5,054 nt of DNA from Acetobacteraceae bacterium. Lineage in GTDB: Bacteria; Pseudomonadota; Alphaproteobacteria; Acetobacterales; Acetobacteraceae. The stretch lies in the NCBI GenBank assembly GCA_003164305.1, contig PLSZ01000048.1:5521-10574 (forward strand). The letters are read 5' to 3'. The number at the start of each line of letters is the position of its first letter. Positions within the stretch are counted from its first letter, which is position 1. The notes under the pieces were generated by a model, which ran no database searches, was not told the origin of the DNA, and saw only the letters and a list, made by a program, of their open reading frames with translations. Shown piece after piece: positions 2,193-4,905 of the stretch. A program made the translations under genes and the position numbers.

Positions 2193-2978
2193 ATGGAGAA
2201 CTGGAACCCGCGACCGCTCAACCCGGATCAGATCACGTTCCATCGGCGTGGGACGGGCAAGCCGCTCGTGCTGCTGCACTGCCTGGGTCAGTCCTGGCGT
2301 TTCTGGGACGTGCTGGACCCGCTCGCGGATCGCAACGAACTCATCGCCTACAACTTTCCGGGCCATGGCGATTCGCCTCTGCCCGGGCATCAATACGGCG
2401 CGCCGGAACTGACCGGGCAACTGCGCGCCGCCGCCTCGCGGGCGGGCCTGACCAAATTCCACCTGATGGGGATTTCGTTGGGAGGCAGCGTCGCGCAACA
2501 CTTCGCCGGCACGTATCCGGAGATGGTCGATAAACTCGTGCTGGCGGATTGCACGCCGCGCTACGACGACGAATCCCGCGCCAACTGGCCGGTGCGCGCC
2601 GCCGCCGCCCGCCGCGATGGCGTCGCCAGCCTGATCCCGTTCCTGACGCAGGTGTTCTTCACCAAGGACTCGCTGGACGACGACGGTCCCGACGTGCGTC
2701 ACGTGCGCGAAACGTTCCAGGCCTGCGACGGCGAAGCCTATGCGCTGGCCTGCGAAACGCTCGCGGCCCTCGACGCGCGCGAGCAAACCAAGAATATCAC
2801 CGCGCCGACATTGATTTTGTATGGCTCCAACGAACGTCAGTCATTCAAGGACGCCGCCCAATGGATGCACGAAACCATCAAGGGCAGCCGCGTGGTGGAA
2901 GTGCCCGGAGCCGGCCATGCCTCGGTGCGCGAACGGCCGGAGTTCGTGGTCCAACAGTTGCGCGAATTCCTGGATTGA
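2193..2978 (+). CDS. Alpha/beta hydrolase, 3-oxoadipate enol-lactonase-like
   Basis: The 261-residue product is a compact alpha/beta-hydrolase fold enzyme with no signal peptide, so it is presumably cytoplasmic. The N-terminal strand and oxyanion loop read PLVLLHCLGQSWRFWD (24-39), with His-Cys where most relatives have His-Gly. The nucleophile elbow is GISLGG (93-98) with Ser95, and the catalytic His is His242 in PGAGHASVRERP (238-249). The acid is less clear: at the usual GxxD site the sequence is YGSNERQSF (210-218), putting Glu214 near the expected Asp, with Asp220 just beyond. Length and motifs resemble PcaD-type enol-lactone hydrolases, esterases and C-C bond hydrolases; the exact reaction cannot be told. 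It is the first gene of a likely operon: its TGA (2976-2978) overlaps the ribosome binding site of the MetE-like gene, which starts 10 bases on. The pairing with a carboxymuconolactone-decarboxylase-family gene hints at ring-fission or lactone chemistry, but this is inference. Confidence 0.9.
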   Translation: MENWNPRPLNPDQITFHRRGTGKPLVLLHCLGQSWRFWDVLDPLADRNELIAYNFPGHGDSPLPGHQYGAPELTGQLRAAASRAGLTKFHLMGISLGGSVAQHFAGTYPEMVDKLVLADCTPRYDDESRANWPVRAAAARRDGVASLIPFLTQVFFTKDSLDDDGPDVRHVRETFQACDGEAYALACETLAALDAREQTKNITAPTLILYGSNERQSFKDAAQWMHETIKGSRVVEVPGAGHASVRERPEFVVQQLREFLD

Positions 2979-2984
2979 GGAGGT
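2978..2984 (+). promoter_or_regulatory. Ribosome binding site of the MetE-like gene, overlapping the hydrolase stop
   Basis: AGGAGGT is a full Shine-Dalgarno sequence that shares its first A with the hydrolase TGA and lies 4 bases before ATG 2989. It selects this start in a frame that stays open upstream into the hydrolase gene, and it suggests translational coupling of the two. Confidence 0.8.
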
Positions 2985-2988
2985 AACC

Positions 2989-4164
2989 ATGCTGAGCGTG
3001 ACACGCGATATGGTGATGCCAACGGCGATTACCGGGTCTTATCCCAGGCCGCTTTGGTACGACGTCAGCCTCGGCGGCCGGTCGTTCAAAGCCGCGATGG
3101 GCGATTCTTTATTCCGCGAACAATACCTCGACGCCGTGGCCGCCGTGATCAACGCGCAGGAGGCCGCGGGCCTGGACATCGTCACCGACGGCGACGCCCG
3201 TTTCGATCTCGCCGTCGGGGGCAAATCATGGTTCTTCTACCCCATCGAGCGATTGGGCGGCGTCACCGGCCATCGCGACATGTCGCGCGGCTGGATGAGC
3301 CGGCACGGGCTGCGTCCGGGCAAAATCCTGTGGGAAGTGCAGGAAGCCTACCAACCTGGCGTGGTGACGGAAAGACTGACGCGCGGCCCGTTGGAATACA
3401 CTGCCTTGTGGAAGACGGCGCAGCGCCTCACGGATAAACCGGTGAAGTTCGGCGGCATCTGCGCGCCGGCTCTGGCGGGCATGCTGTGGAACGAACATTA
3501 CGCCGACGAAAAGGCCATGATCCTCGATCTGTGCGACATCATGAACGCCGAGTTCCGTGAACTCGCCGACTCGGGTTGCCCACTGATCCAGGTCGAGGAA
3601 CCGCCGCATCACGGCCGGGCCGTCAATCCCGAAACGACCGACGCCGACCTGCGCTTCATGACCGAGGCGTTCAACCGCCAACTGGTCGGCGTCAACGCGG
3701 AGATCTGGGTGCACACCTGCTGGGGCAATCCGAACCAGCAACGAGTCCATTGGATCGTGCCGAGCTACGAACGCGCGTTGCCGCATCTGCTGGAACTCGA
3801 CGCGGATGTCATCACATTTGAATGCGCCAGCAGCGAGGGCCGCGACCTTCCATTGTTCGCCCAGTACAAGACCGACAAAAAGATCGGCATCGGCGTGGTC
3901 AATCACTGCAACACGACGGTGGAGCCTCCCGAGTTCGTCGCCATGCTGATCCGCAAGGCGCTGGAATACATCCCGCCCGAGCGTCTCGTCATCACCACCG
4001 ATTGCGGTTTCGGCCGCGAAGGCCTCAGCCGTCGCATCGCCTATTACAAATGCGTCTCGCTGGTCGAAGGCACCAACATCGTCCGTAAGGAACTCGGATT
4101 GCCGGAAGCACGGGTGCGCGCCGCCGATCCCGGACTTTACTTCGCCTCAACCGGAAAGGACTAA
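2989..4164 (+). CDS. Stand-alone MetE C-terminal-domain family zinc methyl/alkyl-transferase
   Basis: The 391-residue product corresponds to the C-terminal catalytic barrel of cobalamin-independent methionine synthase (UROD/MetE-like superfamily). It lacks the N-terminal half of full MetE, which is about 750 residues. Family marks run in order: GSYPRP (16-21), equal to the GSFPQT loop; VTDGDARFD (65-73); QVEEPP (201-206); HTCWGN (242-247); FECASSEG (277-284); and TDCGFG (337-342). His242, Cys244, Glu278 and Cys339 match the four zinc ligands of MetE, so a zinc-activated thiol substrate is expected. The acids thought to hold the homocysteine amine in MetE appear changed: Asp69 where Glu is usual and Glu203 where Asp is usual. 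Known single-domain relatives include folate-independent methionine synthases and epoxyalkane:coenzyme M transferase, so the thiol acceptor is open. The gene sits between a hydrolase gene and a carboxymuconolactone-decarboxylase-family gene, pointing to catabolism. Automated labels of methionine synthase should be doubted. Family call is secure; substrate is unknown. Confidence 0.9.
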   Translation: MLSVTRDMVMPTAITGSYPRPLWYDVSLGGRSFKAAMGDSLFREQYLDAVAAVINAQEAAGLDIVTDGDARFDLAVGGKSWFFYPIERLGGVTGHRDMSRGWMSRHGLRPGKILWEVQEAYQPGVVTERLTRGPLEYTALWKTAQRLTDKPVKFGGICAPALAGMLWNEHYADEKAMILDLCDIMNAEFRELADSGCPLIQVEEPPHHGRAVNPETTDADLRFMTEAFNRQLVGVNAEIWVHTCWGNPNQQRVHWIVPSYERALPHLLELDADVITFECASSEGRDLPLFAQYKTDKKIGIGVVNHCNTTVEPPEFVAMLIRKALEYIPPERLVITTDCGFGREGLSRRIAYYKCVSLVEGTNIVRKELGLPEARVRAADPGLYFASTGKD

Positions 4165-4167
4165 ATC

Positions 4168-4716
4168 ATGGCCCGCGTTCCGCTTATCCTCAACAAGGAT
4201 CAGGTTCCGCCCGAGCATCACGCGATCGTCGATTCCATCATCGGCAGCCGCGGCGCCTTGCACGGCCCGTTCAGCGTGTTCCTCCACAGTCCGGAGATCG
4301 CCGGCCGCGTCGCGCATCTGGGCGCGCTGGTGCGGTTCGAAGGGACGCTCGATTTCCGCGTCCGCGTGCTGGCCGCGATGGTCGTGGCGCGCGAGTTCGA
4401 GGCCGAATACGTGTGGGGCGCGCAAACCGGAAGCGCGCGGCGGCAGAACGTTCCGGAAGCGACGATCACCGCGATCCGGGACAACGCGCCGCTGGACGGC
4501 GTGCCGCCCGAGGACGCGATGGTCATCGAATATACGCGCACCCTGCTGCGTAAACACCGCGTCCCGGCGGCGATGGACAAGGCGATGCGCGACCGTTTCG
4601 GCAACGACCAGATGATCCAACTCAGCGGAGCGATCGGCTATTACAGCATGCTGGCGATGACGGTGAACGCCTGCGAACTGGAGGCCGCGCCAGGCGCGGA
4701 AGTTCTGAAGGTTTAA
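4168..4716 (+). CDS. Carboxymuconolactone decarboxylase/AhpD-family protein lacking CxxC
   Basis: The 182-residue all-helical product matches the carboxymuconolactone decarboxylase-like fold. An N-terminal GPFSVFLHSPEIAGRVAHLG block (33-52) is followed by RVRVLAAMVVAREFEAEYVW (64-83) and the C-terminal block GAIGYYSMLAMTVNACELE (154-172). AhpD-type peroxidases carry CxxC followed by His in the central helix. Here that region reads FEAEYVWGAQTGSARRQNVP (77-96): there is no cysteine, and Gln86 stands where many non-redox members have His. A peroxidase or disulfide role is therefore unlikely; a decarboxylase-like, isomerase-like or binding role remains possible. The only cysteine is Cys169. The start at 4168 has GGAAAGGA seven bases upstream, and only 3 bases separate it from the MetE-like stop, so it is the third gene of the hydrolase operon. 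Members of this fold usually act as homo-oligomers. Family call is good; function is unknown. Confidence 0.85.
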   Translation: MARVPLILNKDQVPPEHHAIVDSIIGSRGALHGPFSVFLHSPEIAGRVAHLGALVRFEGTLDFRVRVLAAMVVAREFEAEYVWGAQTGSARRQNVPEATITAIRDNAPLDGVPPEDAMVIEYTRTLLRKHRVPAAMDKAMRDRFGNDQMIQLSGAIGYYSMLAMTVNACELEAAPGAEVLKV

Positions 4717-4775
4717 GGCGAGGCTGTCATCACGCGATCAACTTCGGCGCGGGCATTGAGAAAGAAAAGATAATA

Positions 4776-4854
4776 TCACCACAGAGCCACAGAGTTCACT
4801 GAGAAAAAATTAAACATTCAAAAACTCTCGGTGGGCTCTGTGGCTCTGTGGTGA
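4776..4854 (+). repeat. Long inverted repeat built on tandem CCACAGAG, possible terminator or mobile palindrome
   Basis: Arms at 4776-4804 and 4826-4854 can form a 29-base stem around a 21-base AT-rich loop. The outer 19 bases (TCACCACAGAGCCACAGAG and its complement) pair perfectly. The inner 10 contain three positions that pair only as U·G in plus-strand RNA and would be A/C mismatches in minus-strand RNA. Each arm holds CCACAGAG twice in tandem. The flanks (AAGATAATA on the left, TTATTCTT on the right) extend the symmetry imperfectly. It sits 60 bases past the operon stop and 52 bases before the convergent stop. No T-tract follows the stem, so it is not a classic intrinsic terminator, though it could end or protect transcripts. 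From memory, similar CCACAGAG-rich palindromes are scattered in intergenic DNA of several bacterial phyla; this copy may belong to such a family. Confidence 0.85.
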
Positions 4855-4905
4855 ATTATTCTTGCTTCCTTAATCGAAACCGCACTTCGGTCAGACCTGA
4901 TAATC

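Follow-up and report, generated by a model that had tools for sequence, protein, structure and literature searches.

We analysed a 5,054-nt stretch of Acetobacteraceae DNA (contig PLSZ01000048.1; the window hereafter, meaning the whole stretch), which carries three tightly spaced genes on one strand, encoding an alpha/beta hydrolase, a MetE-like protein predicted to be a zinc thiol alkyl-transferase, and a protein of the carboxymuconolactone decarboxylase (CMD)/AhpD fold. The MetE-like protein is the main subject here; it falls in a clade of its own and carries an exchanged pair of acidic residues in its predicted thiol pocket. Genome-level counts come from the genomes of relatives. The trio was laid out as follows.

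2193..2978, + strand: alpha/beta hydrolase, 261 aa, nearest to PcaD; GISLG (residues 93-97) as the nucleophile motif, and GAGH (239-242)
2976..2988, + strand: hydrolase/MetE-like junction, 10-base gap; the Shine-Dalgarno sequence GAGGAGGT overlaps the hydrolase stop codon
2989..4164, + strand: MetE-like predicted zinc thiol alkyl-transferase, 391 aa, catalytic domain alone; zinc ligands H242, C244, E278 and C339, pocket S17, D69 and E203
4162..4170, + strand: MetE-like/CMD junction, 3-base gap
4168..4716, + strand: CMD/AhpD-fold protein without CxxC, 182 aa, assigned by a profile score just below cut-off, a predicted model and a fold match

A first-pass annotation made from the DNA letters had placed these open reading frames (ORFs) correctly, and the 10-base and 3-base gaps that it gave were exact. 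It had also described their ribosome binding sites as strong, which agrees with GGAGG before the hydrolase gene and GAGGAGGT before the MetE-like gene, but not with the weaker site of the CMD gene (GGAAAGGA, within the MetE-like gene). The three genes may be co-transcribed. Compared with two other trios (loci L001 and L002), the ratio of non-synonymous to synonymous substitution rates (dN/dS) was approximately 0.03-0.05 for the MetE-like gene, 0.08-0.11 for the CMD gene and 0.10-0.14 for the hydrolase gene, and this purifying selection on all three indicates that they are not chance ORFs.

The MetE-like protein passed the cut-off for Meth_synt_2 (PF01717; 97.8 bits, cut-off 21) and fell below that for the folate-binding N-terminal domain (PF08267; 14.7 bits, cut-off 27), a folate half being present in neither the protein nor the window. 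The best PDB match was 3RPD (E 3.5e-25), which is called a methionine synthase and is treated as MesD in the available text of PMC7857596. The same text gives H641, C643, E665 and C726 as the zinc ligands of E. coli MetE, and S433 as a homocysteine contact with the amino group bound by E484 and D599. By alignment all four predicted zinc ligands (H/C/E/C) were retained, as H242, C244, E278 and C339, in keeping with the zinc thiol alkyl-transferase without a folate half that had been predicted at first pass. The homocysteine-contact positions were S17, D69 and E203, an exchange of the acidic pair (Glu to Asp, Asp to Glu) compared to MetE and MesD. The S/E/D homocysteine pocket of methionine synthases was thus replaced by S/D/E, in 20 of 20 clade rows. 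Scanning a single genome for each species gave 100 encoded relatives of the MetE-like protein, 80 of which were retained as loci, and the full signature (S-D-E with H-C-E-C) was found in 196 of 200 relatives (120 listed proteins and these 80 loci), the exceptions (L046, L076, L077, L078) having gaps, an X or a frame-broken stretch.

The exchange was next to absent from a comparison set of 33 other PF01717 rows, consisting of 20 paralogs, four MesD, three epoxyalkane:coenzyme M transferases (EaCoMT), two MetE, one split MetE and three others. None had Glu at position 203, one had Asp at position 69 (a Streptomyces row, S/D/D) and 29 had the MetE-type S/E/D pocket. The 20 paralogs, taken from G001, G002, G006, G010, G013, G019 and G027, were all S/E/D. 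A CWGN motif at the first two zinc ligands was common to the clade, all three EaCoMT rows and one Ruegeria row, and occurred in none of the 29 others. An AlphaFold model of the MetE-like protein, built on an alignment of close sequences, had a mean predicted local distance difference test (pLDDT) score of 64.1, with residues 1-86 below 50, and was set aside because of this low confidence; no claim here draws on it.

EaCoMT bind a sulfonate thiol without an amino group. The three EaCoMT rows had N, K or R, and D at the pocket positions, residues that may read the sulfonate of the thiol, and the MetE-like protein shared none of this arrangement. Acidic residues were kept at both positions of the exchanged pair, whereas EaCoMT have lost the first, which suggests that the thiol used by the MetE-like protein probably still carries an amino group. 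Coenzyme M itself is an unlikely thiol because the phosphosulfolactate synthase ComA, whose gene lies in the EtnE cluster of Nocardioides JS614, matched in only three of 39 host genomes (carriers chosen from the 80 loci) and in none of the other 36.

In a 53-row tree the 20 clade rows formed one group (100/100) whose sister was not settled; only in a 48-row tree, from which five long-branch rows had been removed, did the clade come out as sister to EaCoMT (XecA, EtnE; 98/93). On the 48-row tree a joint clade with MesD was rejected (p-AU, the approximately unbiased test, 0.00014) and one with MetE and split MetE weakly rejected (p-AU 0.041). Tree groups were named after the first tree had been seen, and MesA, MesB and MesC rows were left out. 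Among 356 matching plasmid records, of which 60 spread over the ranking were listed, the top-ranked was EtnE of Nocardioides JS614, within an alkene cluster (30.6% identity over 99%, 148 bits). These comparisons suggest that the closest characterised kin in the sample are the epoxyalkane:coenzyme M transferases. The clade occurred in Acetobacteraceae, Rokubacteria, Binatota and others, here almost wholly in metagenome-assembled genomes (MAGs), with Reyranella soli NBRC 108950 and Bradyrhizobium sp. LHD-71 among its cultured carriers. Loci L004, L045 and L068 were labelled Nitrosovibrio, Asaia and Klebsiella pneumoniae, which are unlikely for the encoded proteins and probably reflect misnamed or contaminated MAGs.

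Set against known systems, the MetE-like protein resembles EaCoMT (XecA of Xanthobacter Py2; EtnE of Nocardioides JS614 and M. chubuense NBB4) in its single PF01717 domain, H/C/E/C ligands, CWGN, position in the 48-row tree and, in part of its loci, a nearby dehydrogenase gene. It differs in its pocket, in its modest identity to EtnE, in the rarity of comA among its hosts and in that a Pfam scan of the 5-kb window found no monooxygenase gene (nor any ring-cleavage or ring-hydroxylating gene). With MesD (3RPD; MesX-linked) it shares a catalytic domain without the folate half and the zinc ligands, but not the S/E/D pocket or the clade. MetE and archaeal split MetE likewise share the catalytic domain and zinc ligands, and are set apart by their folate half, the unexchanged acidic pair and, weakly, the tree.

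Most hosts encode a separate methionine synthase. MetH (TIGR02082) matched in 36 of the 39 host genomes, some matches covering single domains only, and exceeded the cut-off in 30. Full-length MetE scores of approximately 500 bits were found in G002, G012 and G019, and G002, which holds trio locus L002, had both enzymes (MetH 1200.6 bits, MetE 504.9 bits). PF01717 matches were present in all 39 genomes (2-27 per genome), and these proteins were strongly multiplied in G006, G007, G009, G011, G013 and G017, with 21-27 matches each. MesX (DUF1852, PF08908) matched in none of the 39 host genomes but also in none of 14 control genomes, making that search uninformative.

The first-pass annotation had proposed an undescribed pathway specific to the three-enzyme operon, a proposal that gene neighbourhoods did not support. 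Across the 80 loci the full trio was found in two, L001 and L002, both Acetobacteraceae, and it was therefore rejected as a conserved pathway. The hydrolase gene adjoined the MetE-like gene only in these two (hydrolases 79% and 85% identical); the CMD gene adjoined it in three (L001, L002 and L015) and lay 0.8 kb downstream in L018. A weak CMD match in L024 (25%) was on the other strand. Neighbour counts are lower bounds because many contigs were short. Spacing between the hydrolase and MetE-like genes was a 10-base gap in the window, 11 bases in L002 and a 7-base overlap in L001. The MetE-like and CMD genes were 3 bases apart in all three trios and overlapped by one base in L015. The trios were separated by high synonymous divergence (dS 0.5-1.0).

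The commonest neighbour family (at least 40% identity) was one zinc alcohol dehydrogenase, present in 16 of the 80 loci (Rokuibacteriota and Pseudomonadota). In each of these it preceded the MetE-like gene on a shared strand; the distance was no more than 3 kb in 15 of the 16, with gaps of 16-139 bases in L015, L018, L020 and L075. Eight aligned members were 78-84% identical to the first, and the two scanned were nearest to NDMA-dependent, glutathione-dependent and mycothiol-dependent models, all below cut-off. An Amidohydro_2 gene lay upstream of the MetE-like gene in nine Rokubacteria loci, to which it was confined; in eight of these it stood between the dehydrogenase and MetE-like genes, the ninth (L016) having no dehydrogenase in the available DNA. 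In L015 the dehydrogenase gene came first, followed by the MetE-like and CMD genes and, 1.3 kb further, by a gene of the GFA family. In L018 an EthD/DUF4286-type gene was located between the MetE-like and CMD genes, followed by a GFA-family gene. In the next nearest relative, L003, the MetE-like gene was preceded by genes for an AAA (MoxR-type) ATPase and a CoxE-like protein and followed, after 3 bases, by one for a short-chain dehydrogenase. Luciferase-like, short-chain dehydrogenase (SDR) and other superfamilies, grouped by looser clustering in 17-19 loci each, were in mixed places and on mixed strands and were not considered linked.

Co-occurrence was examined in 395 genomes of the order of G002 (E 1e-150 for the MetE-like protein and dehydrogenase, E 1e-45 for CMD), among which five carried the MetE-like gene, 14 CMD and 10 the dehydrogenase. 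With kinship ignored, the MetE-like gene and CMD were found together in four genomes (expected 0.18), the MetE-like gene and dehydrogenase in three (expected 0.13), and the dehydrogenase and CMD in nine (expected 0.35). When the four genomes from the MetE-like scan were excluded, all seven remaining dehydrogenase carriers had CMD. The dehydrogenase and CMD genes were on separate contigs in seven of their nine shared genomes and adjoined in G639; in G012 the MetE-like gene lay between them. The neighbours of both varied between genomes, and 10 of the 14 CMD carriers had no MetE-like gene. In a class-wide draw of 385 genomes, CMD relatives (E 1e-20) occurred in 53, three of them with a match below 1e-60.

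Of the two partner proteins, the hydrolase matched Abhydrolase_6 (80.9 bits) and PDB entry 2xua (E 3.3e-22). Its nearest models were of PcaD type, consistent with the lactonase-type hydrolase named at first pass, yet it missed the cut-off of the 3-oxoadipate enol-lactonase model (PcaD, TIGR02427; 152 bits against 255.85) and that of PcaDC (166.7 bits). The pairing of hydrolase and CMD-fold genes in one operon resembles PcaD and PcaC of the beta-ketoadipate pathway. Membership of PcaC/PcaD was rejected because both proteins missed the curated cut-offs, and the best structures for the CMD protein were of other proteins. A second lineage pairing a MetE-like gene with a hydrolase gene was seen on a Ruegeria plasmid (L178:42-1354), where another PF01717 protein with CWGN is encoded between a SAM (S-adenosylmethionine) methyltransferase and an alpha/beta hydrolase.

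The CMD protein scored 21.0 bits against PF02627 (CMD), just below the cut-off of 23. It was compared by fold because a sequence search of the PDB gave nothing meaningful (one chance match, E 0.61). The predicted model (mean pLDDT 88.1) best matched AhpD/CMD folds of approximately 180 residues, SMU.961 and AhpD (template modelling score about 0.76 to 3lvy and 6e8l, identity 12-13%), sharing the all-helical fold of these alkylhydroperoxidases; a putative gamma-CMD subunit structure matched at E 0.55 only. Unlike AhpD, it lacks CxxC, as had been noted at first pass, since its single cysteine, C169, stands alone and was unconserved across 16 aligned rows. The decarboxylase-type fold assigned at first pass agrees with the model, whereas the name decarboxylase is weak given the score below the Pfam cut-off and the low identity to the best structures. 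An E-W-x-x-H motif is found in many CMD proteins that lack CxxC. The corresponding stretch here was Y-V-W-G-A-Q, invariant in the 16 aligned rows, and a decarboxylase claim cannot rest on comparison with that motif. A family of genes of about 210 aa was found near the CMD gene in five loci (L018, at 7131-7763, L137, L138, L140 and L145), and the two members scanned (L018, L137) were DUF4286/EthD/ABM-like.

The reading we prefer is that the MetE-like protein is a zinc thiol alkyl-transferase of a separate clade, using a thiol other than coenzyme M and working in varied catabolic settings. We put its probability at roughly 0.48, a little short of even. A role as a zinc thiol alkyl-transferase, apart from the main methionine synthase, fits best because the zinc site is kept, the folate half is absent, most hosts have MetH, and the clade is separate from MesD and less firmly from MetE. 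In the mechanism we propose, zinc held by H242, C244, E278 and C339 would bind and deprotonate a small thiol, probably not coenzyme M and probably amino-bearing, and the thiolate would attack an electrophilic carbon (an epoxide, another activated alkyl group or a donated methyl) to give a thioether. The upstream zinc alcohol dehydrogenase, or the short-chain dehydrogenase of L003, could then act as an oxidant of a hydroxyalkyl thioether or of an aldehyde that is set free. In the lineage of the window, a lactonase-like hydrolase and a non-redox CMD-fold protein occupy the operon instead of the dehydrogenase. The evidence favours the window being one setting of the enzyme, found in one lineage, with other lineages placing it differently. 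A bolder and fairly doubtful extension is that this widespread clade is sister to EaCoMT and couples epoxides or other alkyl electrophiles to a thiol that bears an amino group and is not coenzyme M (e.g., homocysteine, cysteine or a gamma-glutamyl thiol). The enzyme most often linked to it would be a class III-like zinc alcohol dehydrogenase, and the whole would amount to a version, free of coenzyme M, of the alkene-epoxide pathway of bacteria, present in Acetobacteraceae, Rokubacteria, Binatota and others.

Several observations weigh against the preferred reading. In the 53-row tree the sister of the clade was not settled (88/59) and the clade joined three long-branch rows; the five long-branch rows were dropped after the first tree had been seen, and the sisterhood with EaCoMT appears only then. 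EtnE reached up to 156 bits against MesD-type proteins, slightly above its 148 bits against the MetE-like protein, so pairwise scores alone are not decisive. No dehydrogenase was present in the available DNA of 64 of the 80 loci, many of whose contigs end early. A separate metE or metH, the check named at first pass, was present in most hosts, but G001, G006 and G017, drafts of unstated completeness, showed neither a MetH match nor a full-length MetE; G001 is the genome of trio locus L001, whose protein is sister to that of the window in the tree. The exchanged pair is also conservative and, judged from the residues, could still bind homocysteine, which would allow a methionine synthase with an odd methyl donor.

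One rival reading is a fifth core (folate-independent) methionine synthase, accessory to MetH and taking its methyl group from, e.g., a corrinoid protein, a methylated osmolyte or an oxidatively released methyl. The PF01717 domain without a folate half, the intact zinc ligands, the retained pocket Ser and the acidic character of the other two positions would all suit such an enzyme, as would the three genomes with neither MetH nor full MetE, and four core synthase families are described in the accessible part of PMC7857596. We nevertheless consider it rather unlikely: the clade stands apart from MesD and less firmly from MetE (MesA, MesB and MesC not being in the tree), MetH exceeds its cut-off in 30 of 39 hosts, and no methionine gene was among the typed neighbours (alcohol dehydrogenase, amidohydrolase, SDR, hydrolase and others). 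It is also unlikely that the three genes are chance neighbours in one lineage that work separately. The confinement of the complete trio to two Acetobacteraceae loci, the varying neighbours of CMD and the dehydrogenase, and the 10 CMD carriers without a MetE-like gene would be expected on that account, whereas the order and close packing kept in L001 and L002 despite their synonymous divergence, the CMD gene directly after the MetE-like gene in the more distant L015 and nearby in L018, and the presence of CMD in four of five MetE-like carriers and nine of ten dehydrogenase carriers of the order sample would not.

Our reading retains the general idea of the first-pass annotation, a thiol alkyl-transferase distinct from the main methionine synthase, and drops its specific three-enzyme pathway. 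Close to that pathway is a demethylase arm serving the catabolism of aromatics or ethers: an ether, ester or sulfonium would give up a methyl or alkyl group to a thiol, and the hydrolase and CMD protein would process the remainder. A hydrolase nearest to PcaDC and PcaD beside a CMD-fold partner recalls the PcaC-PcaD pair, and CMD relatives lie near the 210-aa family in five loci (two typed as EthD/DUF4286-like), while L015 and L018 have a GFA-family gene close to CMD. The flanking genes nevertheless differ in nearly all relatives, no ring-cleavage or ring-hydroxylating gene accompanies the trio in the window, and both partners fall below their family cut-offs, making this arm improbable, more so than a chance grouping.

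All source-named relatives among the 120 listed were called methionine synthase or homocysteine methyltransferase of some form. Such a name is probably wrong here, since the acidic pair is exchanged, the proteins form a separate clade and most of the carriers examined have MetH. The exchanged pair provides a two-residue marker for re-annotation. We found no description of the clade, nor an activity for any member, in the open-licence PMC literature, which is not proof of absence. Weak EtnE homologues in methanotrophs are taken as probably methionine synthase in the available portion of PMC11507031, and the present clade is an example of why such homologues need not be. According to the accessible text of PMC12366255, the effect studied there did not depend on a Mes-like gene of Phaeobacter, as its deletion showed. 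Identifying the thiol and electrophile would show that the MetE fold is used without coenzyme M in Acetobacteraceae, Rokubacteria and Binatota.

Two further genes are located upstream of the trio.

771-2126, - strand: protein of 451 aa, unmatched in Pfam, NCBIfam and PHROGs
2-388, - strand: trypsin-like (Trypsin_2, Pfam) peptidase, start only, cut by the window edge

No RNA families were found within the window, promoter-like and terminator-like sites were no more frequent there than in shuffled sequence, and a PHROGs search of it gave generic matches only. An imperfect inverted repeat lies 3' of the CMD gene (4767-4863; arms of 38 nt, 82% complementary, with a 21-nt spacer), the 16-base core of which had an exact copy in none of 199 loci. 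A relative of the 451-aa protein, belonging to the same cluster, also adjoins the trio in L001 and L002.

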